Below, one piece after another: positions 19,788 to 36,137 of a stretch of DNA of 54,486 bases. The stretch is from positions 11,406-65,891 of the IMG/VR virus record IMGVR_UViG_3300029448_000023, one strand, 5' to 3'. The first letter of the stretch is position 1. Every line of letters starts with the position of its first letter. The DNA comes from a virus. The position numbers and the translations under genes were made by a program. Under the pieces are notes generated by a model. It was not told where the DNA came from, did not search any database, and worked only from the letters and a program-made list of their open reading frames with translations.

Positions 19788-20052
19788 GGAAATACATAAA
19801 TTTCTTAAAACATTGGAAGAAAATCGTTATAAAAAACTTGTAAAGTCTGAATGTAGAAGAATAGCATGGTTTGTTAATAATGATTTATCAGAAGATTACG
19901 ATGCCATGCCAGAGTCATTGAGAAAAAAATGGGTAAAAGCTGAATATAAAAAAGAAAAATATTTAGCTAAAAAATTCTTAGAAAACTTACAAGAATTAGA
20001 AGAACAAAAATTAAGAGAATCAATTCGTAACATAATCAAGAGGTTAATATGA
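19762..20052 (+). CDS. Small basic helical protein overlapping the actin-like gene
   Basis: 96 residues from ATG 19762; GTG 19768 in the same frame is better spaced from the GAGGAGG at 19755-19761 and may be the real start. The product is all-helical and basic. It ends with KLRESIRNIIKRLI, which resembles the leader helices of the surrounding genes but at the C-terminus. It overlaps the actin-like gene by 26 bases and the next gene by 4, so translation is coupled. Function unknown. Confidence 0.5.
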   Translation: MKVKRATIKEIHKFLKTLEENRYKKLVKSECRRIAWFVNNDLSEDYDAMPESLRKKWVKAEYKKEKYLAKKFLENLQELEEQKLRESIRNIIKRLI

Positions 20053-20300
20053 GAAAAAGAAAGAACTTTAGGAAAAAAAGACCTAAAGACACTGCAGTAG
20101 GGTTATCAGTAACGGTTTTTAACAACAATGTAGAAGGAGCTCTAAAAGTTCTTAAAAAGAAAGTAAAAAATTCAAATTTATTTTTAGATTTAAGAAAAAA
20201 AGAATACTATGTAAAGCCATCAGAAATAAATAGACAAAAAAGAAATATGGCAAAATTAAGAAATAAATATAAAAACGAAAAAGAACAAAAAAACTATTAA
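20049..20300 (+). CDS. rpsU: Ribosomal protein bS21-like
   Basis: 83 residues. After a basic N-terminus, VTVFNNNVEGALKVLKKKV...LFLDLRKKEYYVKPSEINRQKR follows the bS21 pattern: a short strand, a helix with VE-AL--LKK, a (R/K)(R/K)-EYY-KPS motif, then an arginine/lysine-rich helix. bS21 sits near the anti-Shine-Dalgarno end of 16S rRNA in the small subunit. Viral bS21 genes are known from marine phages, including pelagiphage HTVC008M. It may bias host ribosomes toward phage mRNAs, which here carry strong AGGAG sites. It lies at the end of the core-protein run, just before the scaffold promoter. Confidence 0.8.
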   Translation: MRKRKNFRKKRPKDTAVGLSVTVFNNNVEGALKVLKKKVKNSNLFLDLRKKEYYVKPSEINRQKRNMAKLRNKYKNEKEQKNY

Positions 20301-30875: not shown

Positions 30876-31364
30876 ATGGCTACATTGATTGATGCTAATG
30901 AAATAATGTTTACGGCTTTTGAGCCTAAACTAAAAAATAGATATGTAATGAATCTGAATGGTCTTCCTGCCTATCTTGTAAAAACAATGGCAAGACCTTC
31001 AATAACTTTTGAAGAAGTAGAATTACATCACATAAATGTTAAAAGATATGTTCACGGTAAAGCTACTTGGGAACCGATTGAGATAACTTTGTATGACCCA
31101 GTTGTTCCATCAGCTGCACAAGGTGTTATGGAATGGATTAGATTACACCACGAATCAGTAACTGGTAGAGATGGATATTCTGATTTTTACAAAAAAGATA
31201 TTGATTTTCAAGTTCTTGGTCCTGTAGGTGATGTAGTTGAAGAATGGAAGTTAAAAGGTGCCTTTATACAAGCAGCAAATTTCAATGATTTAGATTATTC
31301 ATCAAGTGACCCTGTAGACATTTCTCTTACATTAAGATACGATTACGCAATACTTCAGTTCTAA
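30876..31364 (+). CDS. Tail tube protein (gp19-like)
   Basis: 162 residues, identical in size class to T4 gp19 (163). Typical segments are NRYVMNLNGLPAYLVKTMARPSITFEEVELHHINVKRYV, WEPIEITLYDPVVPSAAQGVMEWI, GRDGYSDFYKKDIDFQVLGPVGDVVEEWKLKGAFI and the terminal DISLTLRYDYAILQF. It forms the hollow inner tube inside the sheath. Single-gene unit: preceded by a promoter motif and followed by a strong terminator, in keeping with high expression. Confidence 0.95.
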   Translation: MATLIDANEIMFTAFEPKLKNRYVMNLNGLPAYLVKTMARPSITFEEVELHHINVKRYVHGKATWEPIEITLYDPVVPSAAQGVMEWIRLHHESVTGRDGYSDFYKKDIDFQVLGPVGDVVEEWKLKGAFIQAANFNDLDYSSSDPVDISLTLRYDYAILQF

Positions 31365-31462: not shown

Positions 31463-31936
31463 ATGAAAACATTCAAAGAAATTATTGAACAAGTTTTAGA
31501 ACACGAGGGTGGTTATGTAAACGACCCCAAAGATTTAGGTGGTGAAACAAAGTATGGCATCACTAAAAGGTTTTATCCAGATATTGATATAAAGAATCTA
31601 ACAATAGAACAAGCAAAAGACATCTATAAAAAAGATTATTGGGATAAAAACAAAGTTGAATCTCTTCCACAGAATTTATGGCATATTTATTTTGATATGT
31701 GTGTGAATATGGGTAAGAGAACAGCAGTCAAAGTTCTACAAAGAGCAGCTGTCAACAGAGGTAAAGATATAGAAGTTGATGGTGGCTTAGGACCAATGAC
31801 AATTGGAGCTCTAAAAGGTGTCGAGTTAGATAGAGTTAGAGCATTCAGAGTAAAGTATTATGTAGATTTAATAACAGCTAAACCAGAACAAGAAAAATTC
31901 TTTTTAGGATGGTTTAGACGAGCAACGGAGGTATAA
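31463..31936 (+). CDS. GH108-type lysozyme/endolysin with peptidoglycan-binding C-terminus
   Basis: 157 residues. The N-terminal catalytic pattern VLEHEGGYVNDPKDLGGETKYGITK (about 12-36) matches glycosyl hydrolase family 108 (N-acetylmuramidase), with the catalytic Glu in HEGGY. The C-terminal half (VKVLQRAAVNRGKDIEVDGGLGPMTIGAL) matches the small peptidoglycan-binding domain that accompanies GH108. No signal peptide. It lies between tube and baseplate genes, so it could serve as endolysin or as a tail-associated lysozyme. The N-terminus superficially resembles the head-targeting leaders but is part of the enzyme. Confidence 0.9.
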   Translation: MKTFKEIIEQVLEHEGGYVNDPKDLGGETKYGITKRFYPDIDIKNLTIEQAKDIYKKDYWDKNKVESLPQNLWHIYFDMCVNMGKRTAVKVLQRAAVNRGKDIEVDGGLGPMTIGALKGVELDRVRAFRVKYYVDLITAKPEQEKFFLGWFRRATEV

Positions 31937-31938
31937 AT

Positions 31939-32121
31939 ATGTCAAGTGATAAATTATATAACGATATAAAACAACTATTTACAGATTTTGAAGATAACCA
32001 TTCAATATTTGTAGACAAAGGTAATAAAGCAGCTGGTGGTAGAGCTAGAAAAGCTATCGGTGAAATCAAAAAATTAGTGACGAGTTATAGACAAGCATCT
32101 GTAAATGAATCAAAATCATAG
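31939..32121 (+). CDS. Histone H1-like (Hc1-type) DNA-binding protein
   Basis: 60 residues: a helix LYNDIKQLFTDFEDNHSIFVDKG, then NKAAGGRARKAIGEIKKLVTSYR, which follows the Hc1-like histone H1 pattern (KGNKAAGxRARKxLxEIKKL) of bacteria such as Chlamydia and Bacteroidetes. Hc1 proteins condense DNA. Starting two bases after the lysozyme stop, it is probably co-expressed late. Possible roles are genome compaction before packaging or host nucleoid disruption. Not seen in T4. Confidence 0.7.
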   Translation: MSSDKLYNDIKQLFTDFEDNHSIFVDKGNKAAGGRARKAIGEIKKLVTSYRQASVNESKS

Positions 32122-32130
32122 GAGTCAAAA

Positions 32131-32913
32131 ATGGCAGAACCACAAACAGAAAAAGCAGATATAAAAAAACAAAAATTTCCTAGTGAAATAATTGATTTAC
32201 CGAGCGGTGGTAAAATATATGGAAAAGATTCACCACTATATAAAGGTAAAATAGAAATAAAATATATGACTGCTAAAGAAGAGGATATTTTGACATCACA
32301 GAATCTTATCAAAAAAGGTGCTGTTTTGGAGAAATTAATGGATTCATTGATACTAACTCCTGGTATAAATACAAAAGATTTAGTGTTAGGTGATAAAAAT
32401 GCCATAATGATTGCTATTCGTATTTTAGCATACGGACCTGAATATTCTACAGAGGTTACACATCCTACAACAGATGAAACAATTACTCACAAGTTTAATT
32501 TAGCAGATTGTCCATATAAAATAGTTCCATCAGATGTTGATTATTCTTCAAATGAATTTGACTTTGAATTACCTATTTCAAAATCAAAAATAAAATGGAA
32601 ATTATTGACAGGTATAGATGATGAACAAATTAATGCTGAATTAGATGCAAAGAAAAAATTAGGTTCTTTACAATCATCAGGAATAACGACAAGATTAAAG
32701 CGTGTTATCATCGAATGGGATGGAATAACTGATAAGGCAGAATTATCTGAATCGATTGATAATATGTTATCAAAAGATTCATTAGCTCTCAGAAATGAAA
32801 TAACAAGAATATCACCAGATGTTGAGATGAAACAGGAAATAGAGTTTCCAGAAGGAGGAACGGTTGAAGTGGATATTCCACTGACCGTAAACTTTTTTTG
32901 GCCTGAGTCCTAA
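32131..32913 (+). CDS. Baseplate hub/tail-assembly protein (gp26-like), 0-frame product
   Basis: 260 residues with the T4 baseplate gp26 pattern: PSEIIDLPSGGKIYGKDSPLYKGKIEIKYMTAKEEDILTSQNLIKKGAVLEKLMDSLIL, then LGDKNAIMIAIRILAYGPEYSTEV. It ends VNFFWPES at TAA 32911. Immediately before the stop lies a run of seven T (32893-32899), from which a shift into the +1 (or -2) frame gives a long extension. The pairing of a short and a frameshifted long product just upstream of the tape measure gene is typical of tail assembly chaperones in other tailed phages. Confidence 0.85.
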   Translation: MAEPQTEKADIKKQKFPSEIIDLPSGGKIYGKDSPLYKGKIEIKYMTAKEEDILTSQNLIKKGAVLEKLMDSLILTPGINTKDLVLGDKNAIMIAIRILAYGPEYSTEVTHPTTDETITHKFNLADCPYKIVPSDVDYSSNEFDFELPISKSKIKWKLLTGIDDEQINAELDAKKKLGSLQSSGITTRLKRVIIEWDGITDKAELSESIDNMLSKDSLALRNEITRISPDVEMKQEIEFPEGGTVEVDIPLTVNFFWPES

Positions 32914-33091
32914 AGAAAAACCTTATATTCACAAGTCAATATTTAATCTTGTATATTACGGAAAAGGTTTTAATTTTTCAGAAGTATATAGTATGCCTGT
33001 TTATTTAAGAAATTGGTATCTGAATGAACTTCAAGCTACAATGAAAAAAGAATCTGATGAAATTAAAAAGGCTAACAAACAAAGAAGATAG
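32894..33091 (+). CDS. Frameshift extension of the gp26-like gene
   Basis: The +1 frame is open from 32891 to TAG 33089-33091 and encodes about 63 residues: GLSPKEKPYIHKSIFNLVYY, GFNFSEVYSMPVYLRNWYLN and a Lys/Glu-rich end. No ribosome binding site or plausible start precedes it; the first ATG (32993) lies in the middle. The SEVYSMPVYLRNWYLN segment is the kind found fused or adjacent to gp26 in marine T4-like phages. I infer programmed slippage on TTTTTTT, giving a fused product of about 319-320 residues. A sequencing error in the T run is the alternative, in which case the two frames form one normal gene. Confidence 0.7.
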   Translation, partial: FFGLSPKEKPYIHKSIFNLVYYGKGFNFSEVYSMPVYLRNWYLNELQATMKKESDEIKKANKQRR

Positions 33092-33167: not shown

Positions 33168-36137
33168 ATGCCATCATCAAGAGAAATCAATAAACAGAAC
33201 GAATCTCTAAACGAACAAAGAGATTTATTGGCAGACATTGAGGATATTTTTGAAGATGTAGTTTCCTCTGCAGAAGATATGACAAAAAATTTAGAGGGTG
33301 TTGCTGATTTGATGAAACAAATATTAAGTGACACTAACGACATACCTGATAATGTAGATGATACCAATAAAAATACCAACAAATTTACTCAATTACTAAA
33401 AAAAGCAAAAGGTAAGACAAAAGACCTAGCTAAAGGGTTATTACAGGCTGGTAAACAAGTAGCAGACACTATGGTATCTGCTTTTGGTGAGATTGGTAGT
33501 ATCCTATCGTCTATATTGAGTCTGAGTTTTGTAGGAGCTATAACAGGATTATTTGGTGCTGTTATAAGTAAGTTCCAATACGATATGAAAGCAGTTGTCA
33601 ATGAGATAGGTGTTGGATTTGAAGTAGCAGGCAACAGAGCAAATGCATCATTCGAGAAACTGGTAGATAGTGCTGAAAGAATAGGTCTATCAGCAAAAGA
33701 CATAGCTCAAAGTTCTTTTGAATTATCAAATAATTTTGGTATGGCATTTTCAGAATCTCTAAATCTTTCTAAAGATATAGCAGATGGAGCTAAAGCATTA
33801 AATGTACAATCTGGAACAATGGCAACCATTGTAGGGCAATTTCAATTAATAGGAGATTTATCAGCTGAACAATCGCATGTATTATCAGAACAAGTAGGAT
33901 TATTAGCAGCACAACACGATGTGGCTCCTCAAGCAGTACTACAAGATATGGCACAATCTACAGAAGATATGGCTTTATTTTCCAAAGGAGGAGTGAAAAA
34001 TTTTGCAAAGACAGCAATAGAAGCAAGAAAATTAGGTATGAGTGTTAAAGATGTTGCCAACTCATTAAAAGGAATGTTGAATTTTGAAGACTCGTTAAAT
34101 AAAGAGTTACAAGCTTCAGTTATGTTAGGTAAAAATATCAATTTAAATGAAGCAAGAAGATTAGCTTTTGCAGGTGATACTGCAGGGGCATTTCAAGCTA
34201 TAGCTGATGAATTAGGTGATGTTGATTTAGGTTCATTAGACCCATTAACTTTACAATCAGTTGCAGACGCAGCAGGTATGTCAACAGAACAATTACTGAA
34301 GATGTCTAAAGGGGCAGATGAAATGGGTGGTGTTGATATGGGTGAAGAAGCATTATCGGCACAAGACAGAGCAGCACTACAAGCATCAAAAACAATGTCA
34401 AACATGGAAAAAATATTAGCAAAAATGAATAGAACATTAATTAAATTAGCTGACTTATTTGGTGACGATATAATAGGTGCACTTGAAAAAGTTGCAAACT
34501 TTATAGAAAAGATACTTACACCTGAAGGTTTTCAAGAATATATGGATAAACTTAAAGCAGCATTTACAAATTTTGATTGGGTGGGATTAGGTAAGAAAAT
34601 AGGTCAAATGTTACTTGATGGTATAGCATTTATTTTAGTGAATGGAACTAAATTACTTTTTGGTATGGGAAAAGCATTAGGTGACTCACTTGTTGGAGGA
34701 ATGTTGAAAGGAATTGGTGTTATGAAAATAGCTATGCCAAAAACATTTGCTAAAATAGCCACTAAACTATCAAATATATTTAAAGGTATAAGAATTTCTT
34801 GGTTAAAAAATGTGGTTAAACCTATAATGAATGCAACCAGACCATTTCGTAAATTTTTTAAAGAAATAAAAGGTAGTAAAGGATTTGCAGCTCTATCAAA
34901 AGCAGCTAAAGGATTTGCAAAGGCAATAAAATTTATAACTAAACCAATAACCGGGTTATTGAAACCATTCACTTCAGTATTTAAAGTAGCATCTAAACTT
35001 TTCAAACCTATTGTAAGTCTTGTTAAAGTTTTTGGTAAATTAGGCTTAAGAGGTATACCAATTTTAGGACAAATATTATCATTAATTGACGGATTATTTG
35101 GTGGTTTTAATAATGTAGATAAGAGTCTTACAGGTGTGACAGGTACATTTAAAAATATGTATCGATTTGTTAGTGGTTTTGTTATAGGAGTAATTGAAGG
35201 AGTTGTTACAGCATTTACTGGTCTTTTTGATATGATATTTGGAACTGATTTAACTTCATGGTTTAAAGATGCATTTCAATTTATACGAGATGGATTCAAC
35301 ACGGTTACAGATGCTATCGTTGATTTCTTTGCTGATATACCAGGTTCGATTGCAAATATTTTTTCAGGTTTAGGACAACTGATATTAGATTCTATAGAGG
35401 GTATTGGAAGTATAGGTAAGACGATATTAGACTTAGTTGTAGGAGGGTTATCAGGACTTGGTGAAGCTTTAATGGGTGCAGTTAGTATTGGTGCTGAATT
35501 TTTTGTAGATTTATTTAGTGGTGCAATAGAAGGTGTGAAAAAAGTACCGCAAATGATTGCAAATGCATTTTTAGGTATTGGTAGTTTAGTAGCAGGTGCA
35601 GTTTCAGGAGCATTTGATTCTATTGGTGCTATGTTTTCTTCTATTGGAGAATCATTAATGAATTTATTACCAGATATTGATTTTGGAGAATTTGCAGGAG
35701 ATTTTGCACAAAGTATAAAAAATGCTCTTTCTACCGTAACAGATTTTATTAAAAAACCATTTAATTTAATTATTAGAACATTCAATAGAATAAAAAATGC
35801 TATTTCTGATAAAGTATTGTTTAAAGGATATACTTTAATGAAAAAAGGTTTCATAGTGGATAATTCAGTATTTGGAACTATCCCTCCTTTTAATATTGGT
35901 ATACCAAAAATTAAAACACCATCATTGATGGGTGATGTACCTCAGTTAGAAACTGGTGGTACAATAACAAGAACAGGTATAGCACAAGTTGATAAAGGTG
36001 AGATTGTTTCAGGTGTTCGAGGTCAAGCATTGAAACCTGTAGCAGAAGAAGTAGGAAAATTAAAACAAGATATAGCAGAAACTAATAGATTATTAATGAG
36101 AATACTAAATGATGGTATTCCAGTAGTGAAGGCATAA
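33168..36137 (+). CDS. Tail tape measure protein
   Basis: 989 residues. A helical N-terminal part precedes several hydrophobic stretches (SILSSILSLSFVGAITGLFGAVI, IGQMLLDGIAFILVNGTKLLFGMG, and a long glycine-rich membrane-like zone ~680-830). Amphipathic helices lie between, as usual for tape measure proteins. The C-terminus (LETGGTITRTGIAQVDKGEIVSG) resembles tape measure ends of marine phages. It lies directly after the frameshifted chaperone-like gene. T4 gp29 has 590 residues, so by the usual ~0.15 nm per residue the tail would be longer, near 150 nm; this figure is an estimate. Confidence 0.88.
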   Translation: MPSSREINKQNESLNEQRDLLADIEDIFEDVVSSAEDMTKNLEGVADLMKQILSDTNDIPDNVDDTNKNTNKFTQLLKKAKGKTKDLAKGLLQAGKQVADTMVSAFGEIGSILSSILSLSFVGAITGLFGAVISKFQYDMKAVVNEIGVGFEVAGNRANASFEKLVDSAERIGLSAKDIAQSSFELSNNFGMAFSESLNLSKDIADGAKALNVQSGTMATIVGQFQLIGDLSAEQSHVLSEQVGLLAAQHDVAPQAVLQDMAQSTEDMALFSKGGVKNFAKTAIEARKLGMSVKDVANSLKGMLNFEDSLNKELQASVMLGKNINLNEARRLAFAGDTAGAFQAIADELGDVDLGSLDPLTLQSVADAAGMSTEQLLKMSKGADEMGGVDMGEEALSAQDRAALQASKTMSNMEKILAKMNRTLIKLADLFGDDIIGALEKVANFIEKILTPEGFQEYMDKLKAAFTNFDWVGLGKKIGQMLLDGIAFILVNGTKLLFGMGKALGDSLVGGMLKGIGVMKIAMPKTFAKIATKLSNIFKGIRISWLKNVVKPIMNATRPFRKFFKEIKGSKGFAALSKAAKGFAKAIKFITKPITGLLKPFTSVFKVASKLFKPIVSLVKVFGKLGLRGIPILGQILSLIDGLFGGFNNVDKSLTGVTGTFKNMYRFVSGFVIGVIEGVVTAFTGLFDMIFGTDLTSWFKDAFQFIRDGFNTVTDAIVDFFADIPGSIANIFSGLGQLILDSIEGIGSIGKTILDLVVGGLSGLGEALMGAVSIGAEFFVDLFSGAIEGVKKVPQMIANAFLGIGSLVAGAVSGAFDSIGAMFSSIGESLMNLLPDIDFGEFAGDFAQSIKNALSTVTDFIKKPFNLIIRTFNRIKNAISDKVLFKGYTLMKKGFIVDNSVFGTIPPFNIGIPKIKTPSLMGDVPQLETGGTITRTGIAQVDKGEIVSGVRGQALKPVAEEVGKLKQDIAETNRLLMRILNDGIPVVKA

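Follow-up and report, generated by a model that had tools for sequence, protein, structure and literature searches.

The gene that precedes the tape measure gene in the viral DNA studied here (the window, a stretch of 54,486 nt from IMG/VR virus record IMGVR_UViG_3300029448_000023) raises the question of whether its product is complete at the 0-frame stop codon or whether some ribosomes continue in another frame to produce a longer protein, and, if they do, in which direction they shift and what directs them. The gp26-like open reading frame ends in GTA AAC TTT TTT TGG CCT GAG TCC TAA, with a run of seven T residues (T7) at 32893-32899 and the 0-frame stop, at 32911-32913, 12 nt past it. The +1 frame is closed by TGA at 32882 and TAA at 32888 and is then open as far as TAG at 33089, which gives an extension of 63 codons counted from 32900, and the -1 frame is shut at 32904. 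This confirms the frame layout described in the original prediction, which had proposed a programmed frameshift. Between 32891 and 33089, the +1 frame contains two ATG codons, one at 32993 within the conserved core and one at 33041 past it, and no GTG or TTG; in the extension, for which the lack of a start of its own had been claimed, the first ATG already lies inside the core. When the local DNA was simulated with a first-order random model, 63 codons stayed open in 18 of 5000 draws; conservation among relatives carries more weight. Taken together, the data presented below argue strongly for a programmed +1 ribosomal frameshift through which one chaperone gene would yield two forms, likely directed by a hairpin; genes of this kind are known, and the direction of the shift is unusual.

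The 0-frame protein matches PF12322 (T4_baseplate, E 3.1e-11, 43.8 bits versus a cut-off of 24.5) and phrog_150 (baseplate hub, E 2.6e-10), and the gene pair is best read as encoding a putative tail assembly chaperone in two forms, the T4 gp26-like TAC-N and the T4 gp51-like TAC-NC. As in systems of the lambda G/GT kind, the gene lies directly upstream of the tape measure gene, which matches six more tape measure families besides phrog_1535, seven in all. The features of the locus are collected in the table. The interval between the tail tube and chaperone genes holds a GH108 lysozyme-like gene (31463-31936) and a small Hc1 histone-like gene (31939-32121; PF07432, E 2.8e-17).

Features of the chaperone locus, with positions in the window
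Feature	Position	Strand	Basis
TAC-N, putative short tail assembly chaperone, T4 gp26-like, 260 aa, 0 frame	32131..32913	+	PF12322 and phrog_150
SD-like AAGGAGG, directly 5' of hairpin	32852..32858	+	role inferred
Predicted upstream RNA hairpin, two 6-pair stems, end 4 nt before slip codon	32860..32888	+	
Candidate slip site TTT TTT TGG	32893..32901	+	tally over 164 loci
TAC-C, C-terminal domain, +1 frame, 63 codons and TAG	32900..33091	+	
Tape measure protein gene, next downstream	33168..36137	+	phrog_1535 tail length tape measure, E 5.5e-19
Tail tube protein gene, upstream	30876..31364	+	phrog_4542 tail tube protein, E 3.2e-35

Relatives were drawn from viral contigs in two scans. The 0-frame protein as query found at least 599 relatives among at least 600 stretches, the best 80 of which were kept, and the Flavobacterium immuto protein, used as query in the second, contributed the best 80 of a longer list. 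Three of these 160 loci were cut by contig ends, and all of the remaining 157 carry the C domain in the +1 frame (157/157); the window and six phage records, either annotated or deposited, bring the total to 164 distinct +1 loci, 93 of which, at no more than 85% identity, form the non-redundant set. When profiles of the N and C domains were run over all frames, the C domain fell in +1 in 166 loci, in -1 in nine, including three weak matches (phiMAM1, E 5.8; Atu_ph07, 0.19; Cygsa01, 0.062), and in frame 0 in one, T4 gp51. Removal of the window's own record (L081) and of a duplicate of SP-15 (L107) brings the 166 to 164. Four loci without a C match (L097, L099, L103, and L106) and three at a contig end (L005, L011, and L130) were unclassified in this run, one (L100) had no N-domain match, and L085, L090, L091, and L092 were excluded ahead of classification; judged by eye, the C domain of L085 (LR756511) is apparently in the -1 frame. 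The +1 loci include cultured phages of Flavobacterium and Microcystis as well as Bacillus SP-15, Listeria LIS04, and Streptococcus GXN1, and the record of the Microcystis phage has two overlapping hypothetical proteins at the locus. Among eight genome-contig loci, one was cut and the seven classifiable ones are all +1, five of the seven records bearing Bacteroidota names.

The two-frame layout, for which comparison with relatives had been suggested, is kept in all 164 loci, and in none of them (0/164) do the two parts form one continuous ORF. The C domain occurs in +1 across the same loci, in agreement with the conserved core noticed in the extension, and the proposal that the gene ahead of the tape measure gene carries a programmed frameshift like that of lambda G/GT is supported by this shared layout and the sequence evidence as a whole. 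Upstream of the slip site, codon-position entropy is highest at position 3 of the 0 frame (1.76 bits, compared to 1.39 at position 1 and 1.21 at position 2), and downstream it is highest at position 3 of the +1 frame (1.50, compared to 1.29 and 0.93). As judged from these profiles, the coding constraint moves from frame 0 to +1 at the slip site. Counted from the first codon after the slip pair (mostly TGG or TAC), the 0-frame stop is found 4 or 6 codons downstream in 157/164 loci, and rarely 3 or 5.

The slip sites themselves are varied in their letters and uniform in one property. TTT TTT TGG CCT accounts for 100 of the 164, TTT CTT TGG CCT for 35, TTT TTT TAC CCT for 16, and TTT CTA TGG CCT for four, with nine further types occurring once each, and 154/164 fit the pattern TTT-(TTT/CTT)-(TGG/TAC)-CC; CTT is the second slip codon, in TTTCTTTGG, in 36 loci. 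The first slip codon is TTT in 162/164 loci and in 91 of the 93 non-redundant ones, versus a background of 79% (p 7e-8). What the sites share would be a TTT (Phe) codon with T or C as the next base, which allows tRNA-Phe to pair again after moving forward by one base. A T directly before the first slip codon is found in 0/93 loci, compared to 38% for third-position T in the background, and the two-fold codons before the slip site end in C in 31 of 31 cases, compared to 23%. Because a T at this position would create T_TTT_TTT, a -1 heptamer, we read its absence as apparent avoidance of a -1 shift.

These variant sites also weigh on other means by which the +1 frame might be reached. At T7 sites, including that of the window, a -2 slip, as in the tail chaperone gene of phage Mu, leads to the same frame with one more Phe. 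At TTTCTTTGG (36 loci), TTCTTTTGG (L012), and TTCTTTCGT (GXN1), however, a -2 move would leave the tRNA on mismatched codons, whereas a +1 move at those same sites can be made on TTT_Y pairs, and -2 re-pairing is possible neither at TTTCTTTGG nor at the TTCTTT sites of the same clade; from this pairing argument at the variant sites, the direction is read as +1 and not as the -2 of Mu. Slippage of RNA polymerase on the T run would instead supply messages one base short or two longer, and 118/164 sites do have T7, but there is no T run longer than three in 42/164, two more have runs of only 4 or 5, and the T that would lengthen the run from the front is absent in 93/93. Because the T runs are broken in this way, as in TTTCTTTGG, we consider both the -2 slip and polymerase slippage highly improbable. 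TAC-C could also have a start of its own, as a separate gene, or be reached by reinitiation, and it is annotated as its own ORF in Mel-JY01 and in cyanophage records, with some ATG, GTG, or TTG present in the +1 frame up to base +45 in 118/164 loci. On the other hand, none of these codons occurs between the opening of the +1 frame and base +45 in 46/164 loci (ATG alone is missing from that interval in 112/164), the first in the window lies at 32993 within the core, and both parts are read in one ORF in T4 gp51. A separate gene is rejected as an even less probable reading because of the 46 loci without a usual start and because constraint on the +1 frame sets in at the slip site. Sequencing errors are usual in homopolymers, but an error, or a decayed gene, would hardly recur at one and the same offset in 164 loci whose site letters vary, and its probability is practically nil. 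A chance open frame was rejected as well, the layout being common to 164 loci. What these comparisons favor is a programmed +1 shift on the ribosome.

The sequence just upstream of the slip site offers a candidate for what directs that shift. In the window, the fold at 32857-32892 has an energy of -14.3 kcal/mol (z -3.86), equaled by 1 of 200 shuffles, and the folding energy of the segment from -48 to 0 is below that of all 200 synonymous versions. Across the loci, the mean folding energy of 60-nt segments reaches its minimum at -40..+20 (-15.5), compared to -5.3 to -7.7 for segments starting at -240 to -100. The 48 nt before the slip site rank in the lowest 5% of synonymous versions in 44/93 loci, versus 5, 10, and 9 of 93 for three upstream control regions; under a GC-matched null, which was possible for 72 of the 93 loci, the count is 23/72, versus 5/91 and 11/93 in controls. 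The ranking is uneven between groups, with 16/17 in the window's clade, 7/25 in the immuto-like group, 2/9 in the TAC-type, 3/10 in the CGA-type, and 11/27 in the others. SP-15 and LR756508 pass this test, and Flavobacterium immuto (rank 0.85), Mel-JY01 (0.13), GXN1 (0.34), and LIS04 (0.53) fall short; not all of the +1 relatives have the hairpin. Stems scoring at least 14 occur near the slip site in 45/93 loci, versus 14% expected, with a spacer peak of 3-4 nt.

Comparison within the window's clade gives a more detailed picture. Over 20 distinct rows, a 10-pair structure has 87% of its cells paired, falling to 21-60% when slid, and there are 16 double changes versus 4.5 in shuffles that ignore relatedness; all of them lie in the outer stem and none in the inner stem. 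Of five covariation measures, two do not exceed the shuffles (pairs with a double change, 4 versus 2.9; further pair types, 11 versus 8.9). RNAalifold predicted no pairs for the whole 21-row clade alignment and finds the stem only once three rows in a shifted register are omitted, leaving rows of one register; by group, it finds stems in the TAC and CGA groups and no stem in the immuto-like group. Such a hairpin is present in 0/29 of the cyanophage loci with a -1 shift, and an Rfam scan returned one sub-threshold match (E 0.11) on the other strand. Downstream structure was rejected as the main stimulator, its signal being weaker (at +31..+79, mean z -0.77 and 24% of 93 loci in the lowest 5%) than that upstream (mean z -1.60 and 47%). 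These comparisons show that in the window's clade a predicted hairpin is under selection beyond that on the protein sequence; a hairpin in this gene family is apparently new, and it is likely a new stimulator. It is also conceivable, if unlikely, that the hairpin serves another function, such as partial transcription termination, and that the frameshift needs only the slip codons, given that a GC-richer stem precedes a T run and that the frameshift layout persists in many loci whose hairpin is not significant. A terminator was not called here by the scan, whose single match, at another place on the opposite strand, is about the number obtained with shuffles, and the end of the stem is mostly 3-4 nt before the run, a position less in keeping with such a function, as is the absence of the hairpin from cyanophage T_TTT_TTC sites.

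A second element, the SD-like sequence, may take part. SD-like matches of at least 6 nt occur at -45..-15 in 58% of the 93 loci, versus 22% of synonymous versions, and where an SD-like element and a hairpin occur together (n = 59), the hairpin lies between the SD-like element and the slip site in 48/59. With the hairpin collapsed, the gap from the SD-like element to the slip site is 3-12 nt in 41/48, and that in the window shrinks from 34 nt to 5 nt; that the hairpin brings the element into reach of the slip site is a guess. An SD-like element is also found within 30 nt in 62% of the cyanophage -1 loci, versus 34% expected, and their energy minimum, taken without a synonymous control, falls at the slip and after it. 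The idea of a host that does not use SD sequences, with the hairpin standing in for one, is not supported for the window's phage because SD matches of at least 5 nt are carried by 25/45 of its chosen gene starts, versus 9.5% of random positions. The phage also encodes ribosomal protein bS21 (20049-20300, with the match at 20106-20264; PF01165, E 5.7e-15), a protein that adjoins the anti-SD of the small ribosomal subunit. Bacteroidetes phages with bS21 have been described (passages of PMC9723584).

Based on these results, we infer the following mechanism. Most ribosomes would terminate at 32911 to give the short TAC-N, and a fraction, on reaching the two Phe codons (TTT TTT), would advance by one base and translate 63 more codons to give TAC-NC. 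By analogy with lambda gpG/gpGT, many copies of TAC-N and few of TAC-NC would coat the tape measure protein, and the tube protein would be brought in by TAC-C. The hairpin would refold where the message exits the ribosome, approximately 4 nt behind the slip codon, hindering a backward slip and favoring a forward one, and most likely sets the direction in this way, possibly assisted by the purine-rich SD-like element beside it. The broader proposal, that in a large clade of phages a natural hairpin refolding during translation prevents a -1 slip, promotes +1, and draws a distant SD-like element to a spacing like that in prfB, and so represents a new kind of bacterial stimulator, is more tentative, and we would place it slightly below an even chance; if it is true, the -1 relatives of the T4-like chaperone family constitute a built-in control.

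The link between the extension and known chaperones was examined at the level of sequence and predicted structure. As the first domain profiles contained T4 gp51, SP-15, and cyanophage rows, homology was tested with held-out profiles. A C profile built from cyanophages only matches residues 209-245 of T4 gp51 (E 1.1e-5 per 1000 sequences; best reversed decoy, 0.23), and one built from the +1 clade only matches ValKK3 (Vibrio) at 2.2e-4, P-SSM2 at 0.0046, and S-PM2 at 0.011 (best reversed decoy, 3.5), as well as LIS04, SP-15, and GXN1. T4 gp51 is not among the best 16 matches of the latter profile, and the window's extension scores only 0.15 against the cyanophage profile, close to the best reversed decoy of 0.23. 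The probable relationship of the extension to T4 gp51 is, therefore, stepwise only, from the +1 clade to cyanophages and from these to T4 gp51. Over the 282 positions of phrog_150, T4 gp26 (208 aa) spans 14-235 and gp51 (249 aa) spans 13-280, and we conclude that T4 has the short and long forms as two genes and that the window would make both from one. For the 0-frame protein, AlphaFold gives a model with a pLDDT of 88.5, and TAC-C alone is predicted as three helices (pLDDT 88.7). The top Foldseek match of the TAC-N model, the HK97 tail assembly chaperone 2ob9, is non-significant (E 1.9), and in a comparison with 505 chains, only 3klu (Z 6.2), which is YqbN, of an XkdN-like chaperone family, and 2ob9 (Z 5.2) reach Z of at least 5, both weak matches. 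A search of PDB sequences with the TAC-N profile gave a single match, outer surface protein A (E 0.06). DUF6760 (PF20546) is weakly matched by 8/41 extensions (best E 0.0025), not including that of the window, and was found in 3/395 genomes searched. Two of the loci (L279 and L280, both nt 859-1623) have N-domain-like and C-domain-like parts in one 255-aa ORF, beside genes judged by eye to be sheath- and tube-like, with the DUF6760 match of L280 reported with one TAA inside, and on the reverse strand of L278, the DUF6760 match lies in the -1 frame relative to the ORF before it and overlaps that ORF. Contractile injection systems may also have the chaperone pair.

Within the family, the direction of the shift apparently follows lineage. 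In S-PM2 and P-SSM2, the C domain follows T_TTT_TTC and lies in the -1 frame, and among the best 80 of 276 relatives from a cyanophage-seeded scan (one being S-PM2 again), all 80 have T_TTT_TTC and -1. The short cyanophage gene annotated as gp51 in S-PM2 and P-SSM2 looks like a -1 extension of gp26 (L093, L104, and L196-L275). In a tree of 46 N domains, unrooted and subject to a long-branch warning, above all for T4, the 27 +1 rows fall on one side of a branch that has a support of 95/78, below the star limit, and is present in 96% of 200 bootstrap trees; L103 and L106 were set as -1 in this tree by eye or annotation, and Atu_ph07 and PA5oct (both -1) adjoin the +1 rows. A homologous pair that is expressed by -1, by +1, or from two genes, apparently according to lineage, offers a direct test of what determines direction.

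The 2022 study by Vladimirov and colleagues reportedly found that frameshifting appears conserved in several T4-like groups. The review by Atkins et al. describes the G-T frameshift as widely conserved except in T4 (passages of PMC5009743), the PRFect paper cites Vladimirov et al. 2022 for T4-like phages in which the short and the long form are separate genes (PMC10885494), and the Adele paper cites it for polyT -1 signals in T4-like TAC-N genes (PMC12846349). Chaperone frameshifting in T4-like phages is already in print (Vladimirov et al. 2022, as cited in those passages), which refines the suggestion that a frameshift in such a phage would be notable; the direction here is unusual. A +1 site or an upstream hairpin in the T4-like chaperone family was not found in the titles and abstracts listed, a survey mostly outside subscription journals.

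Tail assembly is governed by two proteins whose ratio is determined by the chaperone frameshift, and the locus described here can be set beside several such systems. T4 gp26 and gp51 share its N-terminal family (PF12322), gp51 combining that domain with a related C-terminal domain, but in T4 these are two separate genes, with gp26 on the opposite strand and gp51 reading both parts in one frame. Cyanophages and other T4-like phages with a frameshift likewise have TAC-N and TAC-C before the tape measure gene and a shift near the end of TAC-N, but cyanophages shift by -1 at T_TTT_TTC (in the best 80 of 276) with no upstream hairpin (0/29), whereas the window, with its C domain in +1, does not belong to the -1 type. 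Lambda gpG/gpGT also consists of a short and a long chaperone from the gene before the tape measure gene (passages of PMC5009743) but shifts by -1, and no lambda chaperone family is among the Pfam and PHROG matches of the window. The tail chaperone frameshift is also other than -1 in Mu (-2) and in the haloarchaeal myovirus HSTV-2, these belonging to other families and hosts. The shift of HSTV-2 is called very likely +1 in a passage of PMC5009743, which mentions no hairpin. The site is not of the prfB type, as its SD-like element ends 34 nt before the slip and its A-site codon is a sense codon. A mechanistic parallel is found in reporters, in which a hairpin directly upstream of the slip site reduces -1 and increases +1 frameshifting (Cho et al. 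2013, PMC3639245), with the same effects obtained in systems that include 70S ribosomes (Huang et al. 2018, PMC6321510). In both sets of reporters, as described in passages of these papers, a stable stem lies just behind the slip site at a +1-prone codon, as it would here; in the 70S reporter, however, the +1 effect was seen only without RF2 and at a stop codon in the A site (CUUUGA), whereas the window has a sense codon. The reporters were, moreover, designed or SARS-derived elements tested in yeast, in human, or with 70S ribosomes in vitro, and the window appears to present a natural, conserved case in a phage. If its hairpin is causal, this would be a conserved natural bacterial example of a mechanism that, in the passages of PMC3639245 and PMC6321510, rests on reporters.
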